Assembly: GCF_021917145.1 (NCBI RefSeq)
Contig: NC_061075.1
Span: forward strand, 310,001-374,000
DNA from: Hypomesus transpacificus
Lineage: Eukaryota > Chordata > Actinopteri > Osmeriformes > Osmeridae
Direction: 5' to 3'
DNA: 64,000 nucleotides
Part shown: positions 8,001 to 59,440 of the stretch, one piece after another
How positions within the stretch are numbered: the stretch's first letter is position 1
How the letters are laid out: the number at the start of each line of letters is the position of its first letter
Made by a program: the position numbers and the translations under genes
The notes under the pieces: model-generated
Database searches by the model: none
What the model saw: only the letters and a program-made list of their open reading frames with translations
Told to the model about the DNA's origin: nothing

Positions 8001-11000
8001 GCCCACCACCGTGATGAGCTCCTGGTCTGGGTCGTCTGCTGTGGGGAAGATGATCCTGGCTCCGGTGTTGTCCCGCACCTTGCGGATGTTGACGCCTCCT
8101 TTCCCAATCAGGAACTTGTGGTACTCCGGCTTGGCACGCAGCTCTGCTGTGTGATTCTTAGTTTGCTTGAAAAGACAAGACAACAGTACTGCATAAATGT
8201 TATGTTAGGAGATGCCAGCATCTTCCTCCATATGATGTTTGTGGGGTTAAGAGGAGGAGGGTTAAGAGGAGGAGCAGGAGGGTTAAGAGGAGGAGCAGGA
8301 GGGTTAAGAGGAGCAGGAGGAGGGTTAAGAGGAGGAGCAGGAGGGTTAAGAGGAGGAGCAGGAGGGTTAAGAGGAGCAGGAGGAGGGTTAAGAGGAGCAG
8401 CAGGAGGGTTAAGAGGAGGAGCAGGAGGGTTAAGAGGAGGAGCAGGAGGGTTAAGAGGAGCAGGAGGAGGGTTAAGAGGAGCAGGAGGAGGGTTAAGAGG
8501 AGGAGCAGGAGGGTTAAGAGGAGCAGGAGGGTTAAGAGGAGGAGCAGGAGGAGGGTTAAGAGGAGCAGGAGGGTTAAGAGGAGGAGCAGGAGGGTTAAGA
8601 GGAGGAGCAGGAGGGTTAAGAGGAGGAGCAGGAGGGTTAAGAGGAGCAGGAGGAGGGTTAAGAGGAGCAGGAGGAGGGTTAAGAGGAGGAGCAGGAGGGT
8701 TAAGAGGAGCAGGAGGGTTAAGAGGAGGAGCAGGAGGAGGGTTAAGAGGAGCAGGAGGGTTAAGAGGAGGAGCAGGAGGGTTAAGAGGAGCAGGAGGGTT
8801 AAGAGGAGGAGCAGGCGGGTTAAGAGGAGCAGGAGGAGGGTTAAGAGGAGGAGCAGGAGGGTTAAGAGGAGCAGGAGGGTTAAGAGGAGGAGCAGGAGGG
8901 TTAAGAGGAGCAGGAGGGTTAAGAGGAGCAGGAGGAGGGTTAAGAGGAGCAGGGGGAGGGTTAAGAGGAGCAGCAGGAGGGTTAAGAGGAGGAGCAGGAG
9001 GGTTAAGAGGAGCAGGAGGGTTAAGAGGAGGAGCAGGAGGGTTAAGAGGAGGAGCAGGCGGGTTAAGAGGAGCAGGAGGAGGGTTAAGAGGAGGAGCAGG
9101 AGGGTTAAGAGGAGCAGGAGGGTTAAGAGGAGCAGGAGGAGGGTTAAGAGGAGGAGCAGGAGGAGGGTACCTTCTCCTCTGCGTGGGCCAGCAGCTGCTG
9201 ACGAGCTCTCTCCACCTCCTCTGCAGGCCCCCGGATGGTGACCGTGTCGATGCCAGAGCCCTCGGTGGGGAAGTGAATGTGCACCCCTCCACACTCCTCC
9301 ATGATGGAGCGCACCAGACGGCCCTTGGAGCCAATCAGGGAATTGTGCAGCTTGGAGGGGATGGAGACCTCCAGCTCTGTGATGTTTGCCTGGATGAGGA
9401 GATGCTGGGTCATGAGCTGCACCACAGGACTCACTAAAATGAACTTAAGGACTTTGAAAATGTTCACCCCTAAATGAGGCTATTGACCCACCAGCTCCTT
9501 CTGAATAGCCAGGACACGTGCCCGGGCTGCCTCACAGTTGGCCTTCTTGCCTGTGATGACGATCATCTCAGAGTTACTGTTCTCAGCAGGCAGGTCGATC
9601 TTGGTGTTAGTTTCCTCACGAATCTGGGAACGTGGCAAATGAAAGGCACATTCAGGGGAATGTTAAGACGCATGTTAAGGTTATGATCGTAGGCTGCAAC
9701 TCGATTTCACCATGATACCTTCTTAATATTTGCTCCTCCTTTTCCAATGATGTTCTTGTGGAATTGCTTGAAGATGGGAACTGACACAGAAAAACTGTTC
9801 TCCACCTGAAAGACGCACAGCATGTCAGAAGGGGAAGCCAAACATTAGAAAATATTATTTTACCCCACAAGACATTGTGATGTACCAACCATTTCAGCCA
9901 CCATCTTCTGCATGAATTTGGAGCATTTCTCCACCTCGGTGTGCGGCCCGCGAAGCTGAACAATGTCACTCTTATTAGCAGGGTCGGGGAAGTTGATGAT
10001 GACCTAATTCCCCAACAAAACAAAGTTCAACATTCATAAACACACCCAAAAAAAGGTTTGCATAAAAAATACAATATTCCAAAAACACAAGAATAAAAGG
10101 GATTTAGGAAAATAAGTCACATGGTTTGTTTCTTCTGAAACTCAAACTCACCTCAGGGAACTTGTCCCGCACTTCCTTAATATTCTCCCCCTTCTGGCCG
10201 ATGATGGCTCTGTGAAAACGCTGTTCAATTATCAGGTCCTTTGTACGCTCATTCTCCTGAAAGAAAAGACAAGTTACGCAAGAAAAACCTAAGTGCACCA
10301 TAATCTGTAAAATGCTCCCCGTCACAGCGTCCCCCGTCACAGCGTCCCCCGTCACAGCGTCCCCCGTCATAGCGTCCTCACCATGCGCGACGCCAGCTTC
10401 AGCAGCTCATCCTTGGCCTCCTGGACGCCCTGGGGATCCCCCTCGATGCGGATCAGGTTGCTCTTCTCGTTATCAGGGGGGATACGGACAGACACCTTGT
10501 GGCTGTCCTTGATGCGGTTTACTGAAGGAAGAAAAACAAGCTCCAAGTTTAGCTCTGGTCTGTTGCTAAGCAGCCACTGACTGCTATAAGGCTTAGAAGC
10601 AGAAGTCCGTGATCATGAGACTCACTGTTAGCGCCGCCTTTGCCAATGAGATGTCTGTGAAATTTAGGATCCACGCTGATCTCTGTATAATCCATGCGGC
10701 TTACCTGCAAATGACATTTTTTGAAAAATATTCAGTGGTTAAAACTGGCCGTGTTTTAGGTGAACAGCCATTACTTTTCATAGAAGGCTCGTTATCCTCA
10801 CCAAGTCTGTGACAATAGCTTCAATCTGGCTCTGCACCATTTGCATATCTTTGGTGGGACCCTCCAGGGTAATTTTATCCTCCCCCTCGGTAAACTCAAT
10901 ATGCACCTGGAAAAAAAACAAGAATACAGATTGTAAGAACTCACTTCCAGTAAGAAACAGAGACTGGAAACTTGTGACTCTACAAACGAACCTTAGGCAT

Positions 11001-42300: not shown

Positions 42301-43616
42301 GTCTGGGCTGTGTGTATTAGGGTGTATGTTATACCAGAAGCGTAGCATCACTGTCGAGGGCTTTATATCTATATCTGCTTTACACAGTACAATATTATTT
42401 ATGGCAATATTACATGAATTGTTTCAGAAGCCGACCCATTTCTTTAATATCCTTGGGTGAAGGATTGTTTATGGCAAGCAACTGTTATTGTGTGTTGAGA
42501 AGCACTGAAATATACTAATAATATACTAACTCTGCTGTGTGTGTGTGTGTCTGTCCAGAGGCTCTGGTGGAGGTAGCAGACATGGCGGCTCAGCTCCAGG
42601 GAAGCCTGGTGCGTCTGGAGAACTTCCAGAAGCTGACAGAGCTGCAGAGGGACCTGATTGGCATCGACAACCTGACAGCACCGGGCAGGGTGGGTGCAGG
42701 GGGCATGGGCCACCAGGGGGCAGGGTGGGTGCAGGGGGCATGGGCCCCCAGGGGGCAGGGTGGGTGCAGGGGGCATGGGCCCCCAGGGGGCAGGGTGCAC
42801 CGGGCAGGGTGGGTGCACCGGGCAGGGTGGGTGCAGCACCCAGGGGCCCCCAGGGGGCGCTGCTGAGAGCAGCTGTGTCTCAACTGGACTGTGACTGAAG
42901 AGGGCACTGTGTTTTTCCAGGAGTTTATTCGAGAGGGCTGCCTGTACAAGCTCACCAAGAAAGGACTGCAGCAGAGGATGTTCTTCCTGGTGAGTAGACT
43001 CTGCTGACCCAGCCTGGCCAGCTGCTGCTGGGCTCTCTGCAGATCCTTCCATCCTCAGCAGTATAGCTCATGTAGGAGGGACAGCAGGTCATCAAGCATC
43101 AGAAGTGCAGAGTTGTTTGAGGAGCCCGCCCACCTGGGAGCAGCTCAGCGTCTCAACCTGTGTCTCCCTCCAGTTCTCAGACATGCTCCTGTACACCAGC
43201 AAGGGTGTCACAGCAACCAACCAGTTCAAGGTTCACGGCCAGCTGCCCCTACACGGCATGATTGTGAGTACAAACTGACCTTTAACCTCCGGGACAGGGG
43301 AGGTCAGGGGGTGAGAGGGGGTGTGGGGGAGGGACTTGGGGGTGGTTGTTGTAATCCGTCTCTCTGCTTGGTTCACTCACGGCTGCAGCTCATAGTGCTG
43401 GATGCTCCGGTGAGTACTGCCCCCCCCCACCCTCTCCCCTCCCTCTGTTGTCCCCAGTAGAGGCCGTTGGGGTTCCCTGGGCTCAGTGTTGTGTCTCCCT
43501 CAGGTGGAGGAGAGTGAGAACGAGTGGTCAGTTCCCCACTGCTTCACCATCTACTCTGCCCAGAGGACCATCGTGGTGGCAGCTAGGTATGGACTCAAAG
43601 CACTGTTACTACTCTC

Positions 43617-43649
<33 letters not shown>

Positions 43650-43915
43650 GTCTGGTGACCCTGTCTGTCTGGTGACCCTGTCTGTCTGTCTGGTGACCCT
43701 GTCTGTCTGTCTGGTGACCCTGTCTCTCTCTCTGGGGACCCTGTCTGTCTGTCTGGTGACCCTGTCTGTCTGGTGACCCTGTCTGTCTTGTTTCAGCTCC
43801 AGGGTGGAGATGTCTAAGTGGATCGAGGATCTGAACCAGGCCATTGACCGGGCAGGGAAGGCCCTGGGGAACGGAGAGGTTGTGCTGGACCAAGCCGTCT
43901 ACGACCGCTCCAACA
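19529..43915 (+). CDS. FARP2: FARP2, FERM/RhoGEF/pleckstrin-domain protein 2 (3' end missing)
   Basis: FARP2 is a membrane-associated Rac1/Cdc42 GEF acting in neurite and osteoclast signalling. CDS exons: 19529-19729 (exon from 19498), 27958-28062, 29204-29246, 29356-29434, 29543-29640, 29859-29973, 31398-31545, 31731-31826, 32508-32671, 32804-32872, 32981-33038, 33178-33436, 40347-40528, 40846-40935, 41037-41170, 41433-41514, 41659-41896, 42559-42689, 42921-42989, 43174-43263, optional 43389-43409, 43504-43586, 43797-43915. Phases agree throughout, giving about 884 aa before the gap (human about 1054). It starts [15 protein letters not shown]. The FERM domain ([38 protein letters not shown]) is followed by the FERM-adjacent segment ([17 protein letters not shown]), a Ser/Pro linker, the DH domain ([31 protein letters not shown]) and PH1 ([18 protein letters not shown]). 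The second PH domain is absent: after 43915 come a CA repeat and the 100-N gap, then non-coding sequence. SEPTIN2 would be the left neighbour in mammals. Confidence 0.96.
20459..20477. repeat. Poly-G run
   Basis: About 19 consecutive G bases in FARP2 intron 1; a likely sequencing and assembly weak point and a G-quadruplex candidate. Confidence 0.9.
20768..20842. repeat. (TGTC)n microsatellite with degenerate left flank
   Basis: ttgtc pentamers grade into about 12 tgtc tetramers, in FARP2 intron 1. Confidence 0.93.
21330..21640. repeat. 29-bp minisatellite in FARP2 intron 1
   Basis: About 10 copies of a 29-bp unit with core ctccagtagaccccaccctg. Copies alternate between two variants at one dinucleotide (ccctgaa versus ccctgtt), and a few carry 'tatacacc' for 'agaccccacc'. 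Open frames on the minus strand ([16 protein letters not shown] type) are artefacts of the repeat. Confidence 0.93.
21712..21805. repeat. 15-bp minisatellite in FARP2 intron 1
   Basis: About 6 copies of cagccccgctgcaaa. Confidence 0.9.
22152..22466. repeat. 17-bp minisatellite in FARP2 intron 1
   Basis: About 18 copies of ggcaggcctctctctga, with gga/ga and cc/ct variants that change unit length by one base. Confidence 0.92.
22620..22905. repeat. G-rich low-complexity tract
   Basis: Repeated runs of 7-12 G (22621-22633, 22785-22799, 22836-22850) and gggagggg motifs; plausible G-quadruplex former in FARP2 intron 1. Confidence 0.8.
23051..23597. repeat. Near-perfect 29-bp tandem array in FARP2 intron 1
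   Basis: About 19 copies of a 29-bp unit beginning actactgacgctgtgtactg. Every copy I compared is identical; only the right edge diverges (gcattgct). Such uniformity means recent expansion or active homogenisation. Confidence 0.96.
23861..23947. repeat. Two-copy tandem duplication
   Basis: The block agccac(a/c)cagcc(a)...ctccctgcctccctgcctct acactgggc occurs twice in succession in FARP2 intron 1. Confidence 0.7.
24254..24432. repeat. 12-13-bp minisatellite in FARP2 intron 1
   Basis: Degenerate copies of gggcctctccct and gggcctcaccca, about 14 in a row. Confidence 0.88.
24598..24985. repeat. 11-bp minisatellite in FARP2 intron 1
   Basis: About 35 copies of cccctgtctgg with variants cccctggccgt, cccctgtccgt and cccctggttgg. 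A higher-order pattern is visible: blocks of the same variant order recur about every 120-130 bp. Because 11 is not a multiple of three, several frames stay open on both strands; the resulting long frames are not genes. Confidence 0.94.
25277..25731. repeat. Tandem duplication of a 227-bp segment
   Basis: The segment starting cttcttaaggcctgtgtctg at 25277 is repeated at 25504 with essentially no differences seen. Two copies only, so a recent segmental duplication or an assembly artefact. Located in FARP2 intron 1. Confidence 0.92.
26353..27407. mobile_element. 1055-bp terminal-inverted-repeat DNA element, non-autonomous
   Basis: The left end ggggcctcatgtataaa is the exact inverse of the right end tttatacatgaggcccc. 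The subterminal parts also resemble each other in inverse (gcgtacgct repeats on the left, gtacg repeats on the right). Candidate duplications are short: 'cag' on both sides if the element is taken to start one base later. No transposase frame is present. An internal inverted pair (cgtatttcttcgaataaa at about 27081 and cgaagaaatacgg at about 27133) can form a stem-loop. A secondary dispersed-repeat fragment seems to lie inside at about 26880-26970. The superfamily is not assigned with confidence (Harbinger-like is possible). Confidence 0.75.
27551..27747. repeat. 21-bp minisatellite in FARP2 intron 1
   Basis: About 9 copies of ctggtacctatcaatacaag(g), with tca/tta variants. It lies about 210 bp upstream of FARP2 coding exon 2. 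Confidence 0.93.
28325..28465. repeat. Two short tandem repeats in FARP2 intron 2
   Basis: Four copies of an 11-bp cagtcacatga unit (28325-28365) and six copies of a 10-bp gaggtctgt(g) unit (about 28410-28463). Confidence 0.88.
28737..28992. repeat. 15-bp minisatellite in FARP2 intron 2
   Basis: About 17 copies of cagagctgtgcttct, with gct/ttct/gttc variants. All three frames are free of stops on one strand or the other, giving spurious open frames. Confidence 0.93.
29985..30170. repeat. CT-rich microsatellite tract
   Basis: Mixed (ct)n and tctctctctcctcctg units just after the FARP2 exon ending at 29973. Confidence 0.88.
33178..34290 (+). CDS. FARP2: FARP2 alternative terminal exon (FERM-only isoform, inferred)
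   Basis: The exon beginning at 33178 can be left in two ways. An internal donor (tccaag followed by gtgccc, 33436/33437) is in phase 1 and joins 40347, giving the DH-PH form. If it is not used, the frame stays open to a stop at 34288-34290, giving a total protein of about 762 aa with FERM and FERM-adjacent domains but no DH or PH. The extension looks coding: codon third positions are GC-rich, acidic and serine clusters are regular ([50 protein letters not shown]) and no frameshift occurs. A possible acceptor at 33681 (ctcctctccag), in phase 0, suggests the part from 33682 may also be a separate exon. The design resembles the paralogue FRMD7, which is FERM-only. I do not know a published fish isoform of this form. 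Confidence 0.55.
   Translation, partial: SLSFNDSLRMPGSPASGLLSFHSMHLSSSPARFQPQHSPGPSLGASPRLGPGPSQPPAPQPPQSARPSSPPKEDRVKAPPPPPAVQGAPSSRAAALHPPVCVESSPSQTLPPHSGTELTEQGGRRGAGFYVGGGGGERKGFLTSEAFEAEILRAGQKAMFCLPPSPLQVTEEFIDDDPTEMSFYGGGAEAYACGLRGTGAPSFVYGDPRGPCRSPEDLADPFPCCPRSETSSLANNRSSCSSLDQLGLSSAGESYGGGPDASCLLLPGSDAPSEASSMVNFPACSVRSEGSAALQFSDLLEQLEQLSYPPTATEASADSDSDWGSDGGLPPEQNLFYNNPLGGAEGFLLQCHNLQALALGDPPTGPHINM
34270..34343. repeat. 37-bp duplication spanning the alternative FARP2 stop codon
   Basis: The segment ggcccccatattaacatgta around the stop (TAG at 34288) is repeated 37 bp downstream (TAG at 34325), separated by G runs. Confidence 0.85.
35242..36029. mobile_element. Non-autonomous hAT element with 8-bp target-site duplication
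   Basis: A 788-bp element flanked by an exact 8-bp repeat, tctagact, at 35234-35241 and 36030-36037. Its ends are imperfect inverted repeats (left agccattcccaacctgtggt; the right end inverted reads ccagcctttcccactttgcg), the widespread CAG-CCTTTCCCAACC hAT end type. It has no transposase coding frame. It carries ctagctag-rich internal sequence at 35730-35775. Located in the long FARP2 linker intron. Confidence 0.83.
36290..36598. repeat. Perfect 14-bp tandem array (gctagctcctgtta)
   Basis: About 22 copies with no visible divergence. Each unit contains the palindrome tagcta/gctagc. It lies 260 bp beyond the hAT element in the same FARP2 intron. Confidence 0.96.
38357..38675. repeat. 15-bp minisatellite in FARP2 intron
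   Basis: About 21 copies of ccctccagcctcaga, with agc/aac, tcaga/tcagg and cctcag/catcag variants. It contributes to a 343-residue spurious frame. Confidence 0.94.
38800..39232. repeat. 36-bp minisatellite in FARP2 intron
   Basis: About 12 copies of a unit aggcaggactccccctcctc continuing with cctcctccccctcctcc. The unit is a multiple of three, so it reads as proline-rich PPPPGRT or [10 protein letters not shown] frames on the plus strand and [12 protein letters not shown] on the minus strand. There are no other coding signs. Confidence 0.94.
39345..39432. repeat. (CT)n microsatellite
   Basis: ctctct runs with occasional gtctttct interruptions, in the FARP2 linker intron. Confidence 0.92.
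41933..42220. mobile_element. Short hAT-type MITE in FARP2 intron
   Basis: A 288-bp element with ends cagggctcgaaatt and aatttcgagccctg (exact inverse). Flanks are tacacaca on the left and cacacaca on the right, compatible with an 8-bp duplication within a CA tract. The element starts 37 bp after the exon ending at 41896. Confidence 0.8.
42681..42830 (+). repeat. 35-bp minisatellite that duplicates a FARP2 5' splice site
   Basis: The exon ends gggcagg at 42689 and its donor gtgggtgcagg starts at 42690. The same string (cagg followed by gtgggtgcagg) recurs with GT at 42725 and 42760, with a gtgcac variant at 42795, then at 42809 and 42827 (spacing 35, 35, 35, 14, 18). The exon's frame stays open through the whole array. 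Confidence 0.88.
43389..43409 (+). CDS. FARP2: Candidate 21-nt microexon of FARP2 (LIVLDAP)
   Basis: A 21-nt segment preceded by ctcacggctgcag and followed by gtgagtac, lying between two exons that both meet in phase 0 (43263 and 43504). Inclusion would add LIVLDAP within the first PH domain, between HGMI and VEESENEW. As I recall them, human FARP1 and FARP2 proteins lack this insertion, so it would be an optional exon. The alternative is chance GT-AG around intronic sequence. Confidence 0.4.
43615..43790. repeat. (TCTG)n with gtgaccctgtctgtctg units
   Basis: A tctg microsatellite merging into about seven copies of a 17-21-bp unit (gtctgtctggtgaccct). It ends directly at the acceptor of the exon starting at 43797. 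Confidence 0.9.
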
Positions 43916-44114: not shown

Positions 44115-44214
44115 NNNNNNNNNNNNNNNNNNNNNNNNNNNNNNNNNNNNNNNNNNNNNNNNNNNNNNNNNNNNNNNNNNNNNNNNNNNNNNNNNNNNNN
44201 NNNNNNNNNNNNNN
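44115..44214. other. Assembly gap, exactly 100 N
   Basis: A run of 100 N, the usual placeholder for a gap of unknown size. FARP2 coding sequence stops before it and only 3' UTR-like sequence follows, so the exons for the second PH domain (about 170 aa in human) should be here. Confidence 0.97.
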
Positions 44215-45811
44215 AGCCGTTGGGTCAGTGAGGACTCTGGACTGGACAAGACTGGCAGTTGGTTTTCATGTCTTTGTTTTTACATTTCATACAAACCTTC
44301 CTCTAGATGCTACTGTGGGACAGTGTTGTTTAAAATGTTTATTTTTTGGTAATCCGTTTTGAAAATAATAATTATTCCAGTGTATAAGATAAGTGTTTGT
44401 AAAGAGGGAATGCTTTGTAAATCCATCTGATTTAGCAGAGAAGTGTGAGGCTGGTGGGATTGTTTCCCCTGCAGAGCTCCAGGTGTCCTGGAGGATGGTG
44501 GATCATTCCTGAAGGACTCTCTGTATCCTCTGCCAGGGTGAAGGGGACTGTTTCCTGTTGTCTCCTGACTTTGAGAGTCTGTGATGAAGGGAATGGGAAG
44601 GTGTTGGCAGGGTGGAGTCAGGTGGTGAAGCTGGGTGGAGTCAGGTGGTGAAGCTGGGTGGAGTCAGGTGGTGAGGCTGGGTGGAGTCAGGTGGTGAGGC
44701 TGGGTGGAGTCAGGTGGTGAGGCTGGGTGGAGTCAGGTGGTGAAGCTGGGTGGAGTCAGGTGGTGAGGCTGGGTGGAGTCAGGTGGTGAGGCTGGGTGGA
44801 GTCAGGTGGTGAAGCTGGGTGATGACACTCCCAGTTATCTTCAGAAGGGCTTCATGTATGTTGAAACAGAGTTCAGGTGGTTTGGAACTTTCTCTGTTTT
44901 GGATGTTTACGAAATACTGAGACGATTCAGTCCACACTGATCAAAGTATGTAGCATGTCTGTGGGCAGTGCTGTGGGGATCGAGGCAGAGGAGTCTCCAT
45001 GTTTCTGAGGTAGGAAGAGGAAACGTGTAAGGGACCCAGGCTGAACACCAAAACCGCTTTCACCAGCTGGGCTTTCTTCTTTGTGAACTGAACTTTCTAA
45101 CCGTCTAGAATTTGAGACTTAAACATTATTATTTAACAACACTGAGGCAGATTTATTTTCTTTTTTATTACTTTTGGAGCATAAGGTATCCCATTGTTGA
45201 ACAACCACATTTTGTTACTTTTTTTTTTCTTCACTGAAATGTCCAACCTAATTAGTTTTGGGGATATTTTTCCCTCAAAGTTATTTGGGGAAAGCAAATT
45301 TCTGCTCCTGTTGCTGACTTCCTGTGTCGGGGACTTCCTGTATTAGGGACTTCCTGTGTTTGTGGATGTTCTATTCACAATGAATACCTTCGTTCAATCA
45401 GTCCGCTCTAAAACCATGACCTCTTCTCATTGGTCAAACACAGACATCATTTGCATCCAGTTACTCTTTCAATGAAAGATGGGGAGGGAGCATCACTGGG
45501 TCTCCTGTCTCGCTGGTTCTGGGGGACAAAAAATGTCAAGTCTGGCTACAGCCCTTATGAATACTATTATGTGGTCTGCTGGGCTCACAGTTTAGAGGTA
45601 CAAGCTATTAGTTCATCAGGGTTATCTTTATTAAAACCATTTATTCTTTTAGTGACTTTTACGTAGGTGATTCAGGCCGTGTTAACCCTGCGGTCTGGAC
45701 CAGGGGATTGAGCAGGGCTGGAGACGAGGAGGAACTGGAGAACTGTACACGGTTATGTCTTGCTGTATTTCATTAACTGAGCACATACTGACATGACTGA
45801 TGTTTCTCACA

Positions 45812-53690: not shown

Positions 53691-56600
53691 ATGGAGATGT
53701 TGCGCCGCTCGTCTGTGTTCGCGGCTGAAGTGATGGAAGTATTCGACCGCTCGCCCACAGACAAGGAACTCGTGTCGCAGTCCAAGGCCTTATGCAGGGA
53801 CTACATCCACTCTCGGTTGAACCGATCGGGAATAGGATGGTCAAAGCCTGAGCACGGACTGTCGGCATCGGGGGGCACGCTTGGAGAGGTGTCCTTAGTG
53901 CTCCTCTGGCTGGGTGAGTGTCGAGGTTCCTGTTTCTCCACGCCAGGCATGTGTCATCTTTTCGCGTGATGATGTTTTCATTTTACCGTAACAGCAGAAT
54001 CTCATGACCAGATTTGAACGCTGATTGACTCATTAGACGGGGCGGGTAGAGGCAGGTCCCTCTATGTATGAATCTTGCCCATGTTGTGTTGTCTCCCAGG
54101 TGACGAGTTGGAATACCTCCGGCCCAACATTTACCGAAATGTAGCCCGCCAGTTGAACATCACGGTGGCGTCTGAGAGCGTGGTGTCGGACGCCTTCCTG
54201 GCAGTGGCTGCTGACATTTTCTCCACAGGTAAGATCTGCTTTCAGAGAGTTCAATTTATTGGACACTGAGGTATTTGCGGGCCGTTTTTTGGCAGACCAG
54301 CACCAGGTTAATGGAAGGTGGGGATGGCGGTAGGCCTAGTGGTGTTTTGGAGAGAAAGGAGCTGAACTTTTGAACTTACTATCAGTGAAACAATCTAAAC
54401 GCAACAAATGGGGATTCAAGGGAGAAGCTTGACTCATTTTATGCAGTAATAAACAGTCTTGTTTCTGTTTTTATGGCTCTCTTCTAACTGATTTATAGAA
54501 GACCTGAGAGTGATGGTAAAAATAGACCATTTTTAGAGCAAAACACTGAGAGAGAGCCCTTGCAGCACTTTGTAAAATAAACAGTCTAGGATCAGATTCA
54601 GGCAGTGTTTCTGCTGCAGGTCTCCTGCCTGCCAGGGTGGAGAGTAATATTCCATATTAGGCTAGAATGTGGCCATGTGAGAGTTTTCAGGGCCCCTCCC
54701 TTCAGCTCACCCAGCAACTTCAGTATAACCAGCCTTTTTTCCTCAGGGATTACAAAGCCTTTCTACTGAAGTGACTGACAGAACGACGCTAAGGCGTGCC
54801 ACTGGCCAGGTTTAGATCTCTTTCTGTTTGTGTTTGGAAACTGGATTTGGAGTTATGTTTGTAGGGAAAAACCTTTGTGGTTGATATAGTGTTGAACAGC
54901 AAGGTGAAACTCAAGTCATGTTTCAAACTCAGACTATCACTCAACATGTCATCTGACAGACAGAAGCCAGCGTTCAATCTTTCCCAAACTTCTACCGAAC
55001 CAGACAAAATCCCCCAACTTTAACAATGTCAGATTGGGTTTGAGGAGTTGTTATATTGGTAAATACTTGTTTAATAATGTTTACATCCGACATTTGAACC
55101 CTCACGCAAGGCTACTTAACGTGAGGCCTGTCAGCCGTGCAGCCTGCCCGTCCCCAGAGGAAGCCCTGGGCAGCCAGATTAGAGGCTGGCAGGCCTGTCA
55201 GCCATGCAGCCTGCCCGTCCCCAGAGGAAGCCCTGGGCAGCCAGATTAGAGGCTGGCAGGCCCTGGACAGGGAACACAGTTTCCTTCAGCAGCTATGGCT
55301 CTCCTCGACTCTGATCTGCTGTTAAAACATGATAGGTCAGGGATAAAGCACATACGTTTTACAAACATAAAAACAGACTTTATATGTTTTATATTTGTGA
55401 TTGATCTCAGATGTAGGTTTTAGAGGGGACCAGGCCAGTCTTATTTTGCGGTCACTGACCTGGTCAGGTCAGACTGGGAAGCAGCCTTAGAGAGCTTAAA
55501 AAGGGATTTGCTGTTCAGAGAGACAGAAGTCTCCACTATGCTGCTCTTTCTACAAGACACATGGTGATGATACTCACTGAGACCTGGAAGTGTCAAACAC
55601 CAGCTTGAATCTTCTCCCTGCACCATAAATGGGTAAGCAGAGAAAATCCCAATTTAAAACATGAGGATTAGGTTTGATGAATATCTGTTGTCGAGGCTAC
55701 TAAGAAATAATGAATCCCACCCTGACAGGCAAACCCAAGCTGTTCCTGGGGGAGGTGGGGGGTGAGACAGGCAAACCCAAGCTGTTCCTGGGGGAGGTGG
55801 GGGGTGAGACAGGCACGGCGGTCGAATGCCCTGGGTTTGTTCTGTGGTTATAAAACGTCTTTGTCCCAGTTTAAACCAGAAAGTTTCTGGCAGGGGAAGA
55901 GAGCCCCCAGTGTCCTCACAAGCCCTGCTGAGGCCTCACTCCTCACTCCTCACAGCCCTGCTGAGGCCTCACTCCTCACAGCCCTGCTAAGGCCTCACTC
56001 CTCACAGCCCTGCTGAGGCCTCACTCCTCACAGCCCTGCTAAGGCCTCACTCCTCACAGCCCTGCTAAGGCCTCACTCCTCACAGCCCTGCTGAGGCCTT
56101 ACTCCTCACAGCCCTGCTAAGGCCTCACTCCTCACAGCCCTGCTGAGGCCTCACTCCTCACAGCCCTGCTGAGGCCTCACTCCTCACTCCTCACAGCCCT
56201 GCTGAGGCCTCACTCCTCACAGCCCTGCTGAGGCCTCACTCCTCACAGCCCTGCTGAGGCCTCACTCCTCAGCCCTGCTGAGGCCTCACTCCTCACAGCT
56301 CTGCTGAGGCCTCACTCCTCACAGGCCTGCTGAGGCCTCACTCCTCACAGCCCTGCTGAGGCCTCACTCCTCACAGCCCTGCTGAGGCCTCACTCCTCAG
56401 CCCTGCTGAGGCCTCACTCCTCACAGCCCTGCTAAGGCCTCACTCCTCACAGGCCTGCACACAAACCACATGATCAGCAGCTCTTTCTTCCTCTTTATTT
56501 AATCCCTCTTTGTCTGGTATCAAGCCGAGAGGTTGAGTTTTAGGTTAACAAGAACTTGTGTTTACAGTACCAGTGTGGTGTGTGTGGTTTTTAAGAGGGT

Positions 56601-58594: not shown

Positions 58595-59440
58595 GGGGGT
58601 GTGGCCACTCCAAGGACTGTCTCCCCCCTATCCAGCTGAGGACCGCCCCCTGCCTCCTCTCAGCCAACCACGGCTGTGTTTACGCCTGCTTGAGTTTGCA
58701 CTGAGCCTCCGAGATCCCCACTCACCTGTAGGACCACCACCCTCTCACCTGTAGGACCACCACCCTCTCACCTGTAGGACCACCACCCTCTCACCTGTAG
58801 GACCACCACCTTCTCACCTGTAGGACCACCACCCTCTCACCTGTAGGACCACCACCCTCTCACCTGTAGGACCACCACCCTCTCACCTGTAGGACCACCA
58901 CCCTCTCACCTGTGCATGTAGCTTCCATGATACAGTTCAGTCACATGCATTCCAGTTCAAATGTCATCAAGGTATTTGACTCCTTTGCAAGAGTCCTGAG
59001 AGAGTGAGTATTTGAGTCATTCAGAGTTACAGGAGTAATGCCCCATGGACAATATTCTAATGTGAGAAAATTAAAGTTAAAGAATATCATTACTGGTGAA
59101 CAAATAACTGGTGAATAATTTCAAATGAATGAGATCCAGTTTGGGAAAGAGATCTGCTGCCCCCTTGTGTTTGTAGATCAGAATGAACCGAGCGAACTAT
59201 TTTTCATTGGGTGGTCTATTATAAGCCAGTACAAAGTATTACAATCCAACACTGCAAATGTAAATTGCACAGATCGTGTGAGTGTGTGTGAGCGAGAGAA
59301 GAAAGTTAGACAGACATTTTTTGTGTGAGGACGTGTCAGCGAGACTTTGACCTTTTGTACAATTAGCAACTAAACAATGTCACGTTCTTTATCGTTATTT
59401 TGTCTTTGTTTTTATTATTAATAAAATGTATGTTAATACC
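58595..59440 (+). other. BOK: Presumed BOK 3' UTR with AATAAA at 59420-59425
   Basis: Non-coding sequence after the BOK stop, containing the 23-bp repeat below and one canonical hexamer (attaataaaatg). Confidence 0.55.
58730..58912. repeat. 23-bp minisatellite in BOK 3' UTR
   Basis: About 8 copies of accaccaccctctcacctgta plus gg; one copy has ccttctc. Confidence 0.94.

Follow-up and report, generated by a model that had tools for sequence, protein, structure and literature searches.

A minisatellite at the end of a FARP2 exon repeats the exon's own 5' splice site

A minisatellite that starts inside a coding exon of FARP2, at the junction of the DH and PH1 domains, carries the last bases of that exon and its 5' splice site repeatedly into the following intron. 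The array was probably born at the exon end, with the first donor used in most transcripts and the copies acting mostly as unproductive decoys; on this reading the array is mainly tolerated splicing noise and no device for new isoforms.

The FARP2 exon and its donor array

The window, meaning the whole stretch of 64,000 nucleotides that was analysed (C16:310001-374000), belongs to an assembly of 437 Mb in 376 contigs. On its forward strand, the FARP2 exon at the DH/PH1 junction spans 42559-42689, encodes a peptide ending in NLTAPGR and finishes in phase 0. The next FARP2 exon (42921-42989, forward strand, 23 residues), also recognized by homology, has its acceptor at 42920, outside the array, and further FARP2 exons lie at 43504-43586 and 43797-43915 on the same strand. 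When the first two were joined, the alignment to mouse FARP2 (4gzu, E 4.3e-34) was better than that to FARP1 (4h6y, E 1.7e-29). The exon end at 42689, as placed by the initial annotation, is fixed by the alignment with mouse FARP2 and shared by two FARP1-like paralogous loci on C23 and C12 (L010 and L011), the only other matches in the genome at E 0.1; mouse FARP2 has the same APGR at the exon end, and the two paralogues have APGR and VPGR. Both paralogues keep the intron, with donors AGG/GTGAGT and AGG/GTCAGG (the slash marks the junction) and without an array. The canonical donor of the FARP2 exon, AGG/GTGGGT at 42690-42691 on the forward strand, forms a U1 duplex of -10.4 kcal/mol, and joining 42689 to 42921 yields PGR/EFIREG as in FARP2 and FARP1; among the donors joined to 42921, only the one at 42690 gave the conserved protein. 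Whole-frame scans for more FARP2 exons returned RhoGEF pieces only, in two frames, and nothing against the PDB in the third. Within the 210-base FARP2 intron that separates 43586 from 43797, a second array, with a 21-bp unit, takes up 171 bases (43618-43788) and stops 8 bases short of the next exon. Downstream of these exons there is a 100-N assembly gap.

The minisatellite at the exon end extends over 42683-42845 of the forward strand, with 35-bp units starting at 42683, 42718 and 42753, a 14-bp unit at 42788, and 18-bp units at 42802 and 42820, the last of which blends into the flank. Tandem Repeats Finder (TRF) reported 42683-42797 with a period of 35, 3.3 copies and 98% match, followed by 18-bp units (2.4-2.9 copies) reaching 42835 or 42845, so that at least three tandem copies are present. 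Each unit comprises last exon bases together with first intron bases, and the exon that ends at the first copy is a real coding exon, as seen from the 4gzu match and the paralogous loci. GT occurs in a cagg context at 42690, 42725, 42760, 42795, 42809 and 42827. The sequence AGG/GTGGGT is found in the whole window only at 42690, 42725, 42760, 42809 and 42827, and these five donors agree at every base from -7 to +9; the corresponding 16-mer, GGGCAGGGTGGGTGCA, is thus common to five of the six cagg donors, and it is absent from the rest of the window on both strands. The last 12 bases of the exon, GCACCGGGCAGG (42678-42689, forward strand), also recur with the 9 intron bases that follow them, as the exact 21-mer GCACCGGGCAGG/GTGGGTGCA at 42678, 42797 and 42815. 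Such exact recurrence of a 16-mer and a 21-mer points to tandem duplication and not to chance. Moreover, since the exon end is kept in mouse FARP2 and in the paralogues while its 12 bases recur in the intron, the exon is likely the source of the unit and the intron copies are likely derived. The unit also holds GGGCAGG, which resembles the minisatellite core described by Jeffreys. An earlier description of a 35-bp repeat containing the donor and the last exon bases is therefore borne out by TRF and by the exact copies. The accompanying count of six candidate donors, most of them in the cagg/gtgggt context, was exact in all six positions, five of which share the 16-mer; the sixth, 42795, reads AGG/GTGCAC and stands outside the shared context because it lacks the G at +5.

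The five AGG/GTGGGT donors all pair with U1 at -10.4 kcal/mol and score 3.6 on a donor matrix of human frequencies; the true FARP2 donor is itself moderate on that scale, the donor of the following exon scoring 6.4. Four of the five are forward-strand copies identical to the true donor that shift the frame, namely 42725-42726 (+35), 42760-42761 (+70), 42809-42810 (+119) and 42827-42828 (+137), the last of which would leave an intron of 94 nt. Each of these four strong copies leads to a premature stop with exon junctions still ahead: the later junctions lie 2, 85 and 204 nt beyond the stop for 42725, 42809 and 42827, and 69 and 188 nt beyond it for 42760. The donor at 42795-42796 (forward strand, +105) is in frame and adds 35 residues, exactly as had been proposed, but it is the weakest of the six cagg sites (U1 -4.7 kcal/mol, matrix -2.3). 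The companion statement that the other donors shift the frame holds for the four strong copies; it overlooked weaker in-frame GTs, of the form TGG/GTGCA, at +39, +123 and +141. It is also true that the frame of the exon remains open through the array, but this has little meaning, as all three forward frames are equally open. With the in-frame isoform tied to the weakest cagg site and every strong copy breaking the frame, the array is more likely to give rise to unproductive transcripts than to a new FARP2 protein.

Donor arrays at other exon ends

The genome was searched for three CAGGTRAGT words spaced 5-35 bases apart, and 254 places were obtained, in which the word was preceded by C (122), T (35), A (49) or G (48); 100 of the 122 C-preceded places were listed, which leaves 22 of the 254 outside the listing. 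The FARP2 array is absent from these places because its donor word differs. When the upstream flanks of 51 other triple-donor arrays were read (20 + 20 + 11), in four cases the first donor belonged to an exon that could be identified by homology, namely HMGCR, ST7, TRPM4/5 (PF25508, E 7.4e-19; best PDB match TRPM4, E 1.9e-12) and a DOCK6-like exon (9vm2, E 3.8e-11). A further array starts at what may be a GCKR exon: the Pfam hit (PF22645, E 0.0012) is weak and falls short of the curated cut-off, and a PDB search to E 1 returned nothing, which counts against that identity since structures of GCKR exist. Three further flanks (L071, L079 and L080) are coding-like with no significant family match found, and in one of them (L080, C41:334850-335450) the last 30 bases of the coding-like exon are repeated without change in a donor array whose 39-bp unit preserves the frame. 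For L081, just 22 bases before the first donor were read. Some arrays have exons nearby on the opposite strand that, judged by eye, lie outside the array; two of these were identified (L055 and L072). The number of exon bases common to the first and second copies was 35 for GCKR (one mismatch), 30 for L080, 13 for HMGCR, 7 for both FARP2 and ST7, 6 for TRPM and 3 for DOCK6, and with only 6 and 3 such bases the TRPM and DOCK6 copies are mostly intron. Exon-end donor arrays thus recur in this genome (four to five of 51), which is a statement of recurrence and not of enrichment.

The HMGCR exon (L049, C7:9443000-9447200, minus strand) is followed by nine donors in an array of 8.6 copies of a 26-bp unit with 100% match (oriented positions 1973-2195). 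Eight of the donors are identical at -12.2 kcal/mol and the last reaches -11.0. The exon matched human HMGCR (8djk) with E 2.2e-9 alone and E 1.4e-21 with the next exon, and splicing from the first donor gave an ungapped 68-residue match, whereas any other donor leads to an immediate TGA. A genome search located the exon pair at a single place among the best candidates scored. Given this single place and the immediate stop from the other donors, the first donor must be used if the gene works, and two intact exons at a single locus suggest that HMGCR is functional.

The ST7 exon (L052, C9:845000-849100, minus strand; PF04184, E 8.9e-16) is flanked by arrays at both ends. Its donor array (oriented 1825-2123) consists of 7.1 copies of a 42-bp unit. 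Seven donors are available in it, all of them in frame and one weaker than the rest, and each unit adds 14 residues. The array at its other end (oriented 1339-1739; 68 bp, 5.9 copies) carries copies of the acceptor along with the opening bases of the exon, giving six CAG/GTACACCTGGGT sites including the true one. Splicing from the first donor gave a 101-bit alignment in which 63 residues covered 63 profile positions, and insertion of one 14-residue unit lowered the score to 85 bits.

These arrays have to be seen against a repeat-rich background. Tandem arrays with a period of at least 10 make up 15.1% of the window, in 52 merged stretches, and of the ten FARP2 splice sites that were checked, one falls inside an array and another three are within 60 bases of one. 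At such a density an array touching a splice site is unsurprising, and the special part is the donor inside the unit. The triple donor word occurs at 254 places and the reversed pattern at 29 (single words, 8772 against 7488), but the scrambled word CAGTGRAGT gave 227 places, nearly as many, so that the contrast of 254 with 29 is no evidence for arrays being seeded by donors; a claim that arrays are enriched in donor words was accordingly rejected. The reverse of the scrambled word gave 104 places, and place counts are thus dominated by a few long arrays. Counted by eye as distinct arrays up to about C14:3.2 Mb, the donor word gave 23 and the scrambled word 8 families at 15 loci, from which no enrichment is claimed. 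By eye, no clear exon adjoins any of the three other arrays of the window that hold three or more donor-like words (44606-44821, 55724-55815 and 58717-58913). The last of them is a 23-bp array on the minus strand with nine donor-like sites (mostly ACAG/GTGAGA) and 98% match. Elsewhere in the window, a 21-bp unit repeated 44.5 times (8251-9163) has several frames open and by eye adjoins an HDLBP-looking exon on the minus strand, and an open frame of 312 codons (541-1479) looks by eye like part of a LINE reverse transcriptase.

Choice among the donors

The course of events may be pictured as follows. Local tandem duplication would have copied the last 7-12 exon bases, which are observed to be shared, together with the first intron bases. 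The array would then have grown into the intron while the exon with its first donor kept the ancestral form, as homology shows. The spliceosome would then meet five donors identical from -7 to +9, of which the first, adjoining the exon body and transcribed first, presumably serves most transcripts. A strong downstream copy would be used now and then, with the computed shift of frame and probably nonsense-mediated decay of the product, and the copy number of the array probably varies. The strongest support for dominance of the first donor comes from HMGCR, to which the same rule applies, provided that HMGCR is functional. There are also points against it. When equal donors compete, splicing often prefers the copy closest to the 3' splice site, in this case 42827; the reported use of downstream repeat donors in human IFI6 likewise counts against a preference for the first donor in FARP2, as does the moderate strength of the true donor itself.

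That the repeat donors are instead used in regulated amounts, giving alternative FARP2 messages as in human IFI6, with the array length setting the mix and 42795 supplying a 35-residue insert between DH and PH1, is considered unlikely. Five identical donors within a short intron and an open frame at +105 would suit such use, as would the precedent of IFI6, where repeat units are reported to serve as donors (PMC4526556). Against it, the sole in-frame cagg donor is the weak 42795, the mammalian exon junction has been kept exactly, and the strong copies break the frame, the unit length of 35 not being a multiple of 3, a feature that also supports predominant use of the first donor. The G-rich array might also affect splicing through G-runs or quadruplexes over the donors, which would block or help U1 as proposed for Bcl-XL, and this we regard as distinctly improbable. 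A motif scan and folding with quadruplexes placed a G-quadruplex motif containing the donor at 42683-42703 (forward strand), recurring over the next two donors (42718 and 42753), so that each full 35-bp unit holds one; the fold model puts 42690, 42725 and 42760 inside a quadruplex and the remaining donors partly or not. For Bcl-X it has been proposed that U1 is blocked by a quadruplex which overlaps a 5' splice site (PMC5778605). Nevertheless, 72 of 100 dinucleotide shuffles folded equally or more stably with quadruplexes allowed, which means that the potential of the FARP2 array is what its base composition gives and that its folding is no stronger; the arrays of HMGCR and ST7, moreover, are not rich in G-runs. 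Quadruplexes as the main mechanism were set back by this shuffle control.

It is more improbable again that the array is effectively silent, exon definition fixing the first donor and neither the copies nor their number having any effect. HMGCR, with eight extra strong donors at the sole place found for its exon pair among the best candidates scored, would agree with silence, but neighbouring equal sites compete. Furthermore, some repeat donors of IFI6 are reported to be in use (PMC4526556). An assembly artefact is the most remote of the explanations and very improbable indeed: the 100-N gap at 44115-44214 shows that the assembly is imperfect, but the units vary both in length (35, 14 and 18 bp) and through substitutions, and comparable arrays with diverged units stand at other exon ends on other contigs, which makes an artefact unlikely.

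Predominant use of the first FARP2 donor, which remains our preferred reading, would fit into a wider picture that is put forward tentatively and with some doubt. Minisatellites may repeatedly arise at exon ends in this genome, several genes, such as HMGCR with its nine strong donors, may carry rows of near-equal 5' splice sites, and correct expression may require the first-transcribed donor to beat equal copies nearer the 3' splice site. If true, these arrays would form a natural in vivo series on donor choice in which the outcome is set by unit length and frame, that is, a stop in HMGCR, a frameshift in FARP2 and in-frame 14-residue repeats in ST7. A single array of this kind is a curiosity, and humans offer precedents for it. 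A genome that holds several, with up to nine strong donors and with varied unit lengths and effects on the frame, provides a ready series for asking how the spliceosome picks among equal donors in living tissue, be it by order of transcription, by closeness to the exon body or by closeness to the 3' splice site. Any changes in copy number would act as natural edits of the donor series.

Comparison with known systems

A search of the literature, with subscription papers largely outside its reach, returned no fish case in FARP2 and no genome-wide account of donor-carrying arrays. The minisatellite of human IFI6 (6-16) reportedly provides several splice donors to one exon, as described by Turri in 1995, and the candidate donors of FARP2 resemble it in this respect. 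The two differ in that two downstream repeat units of IFI6 are reported to be used as donors (PMC4526556), the copies in FARP2 being candidate donors. Tandem duplication of an AGGT-containing segment, as in FARP2, is also described for intron gain by this route (PMC4974935). There a new intron obtains both of its splice sites from the duplication; the FARP2 array sits in an old intron and provides no such pair, as the intron is present in both paralogous loci and the acceptor at 42920 lies outside the array. With Bcl-XL (PMC5778605) the FARP2 array shares donor bases inside a possible quadruplex, but the Bcl-XL donor is not known to be repeated, and the quadruplex potential of FARP2 is no more than its composition gives. 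The same exon-end, donor-spanning architecture as in FARP2 is found in the 31-bp VNTR of human CBS, c.1444_1467+7(16_21), which by its name (PMC2630376) comprises 24 exon and 7 intron bases per unit and spans a real exon end; a unit made of exon end and intron start places a donor in each copy. With CBS and IFI6 as human precedents and exact copies in the window, the original proposal that the exon's own donor had been copied is upheld. The CBS repeat has 16-21 copies and is polymorphic in people, compared with roughly 3.3 copies of a 35-bp unit and some shorter ones, with 7-12 exon bases, in the single assembly that represents the FARP2 array.
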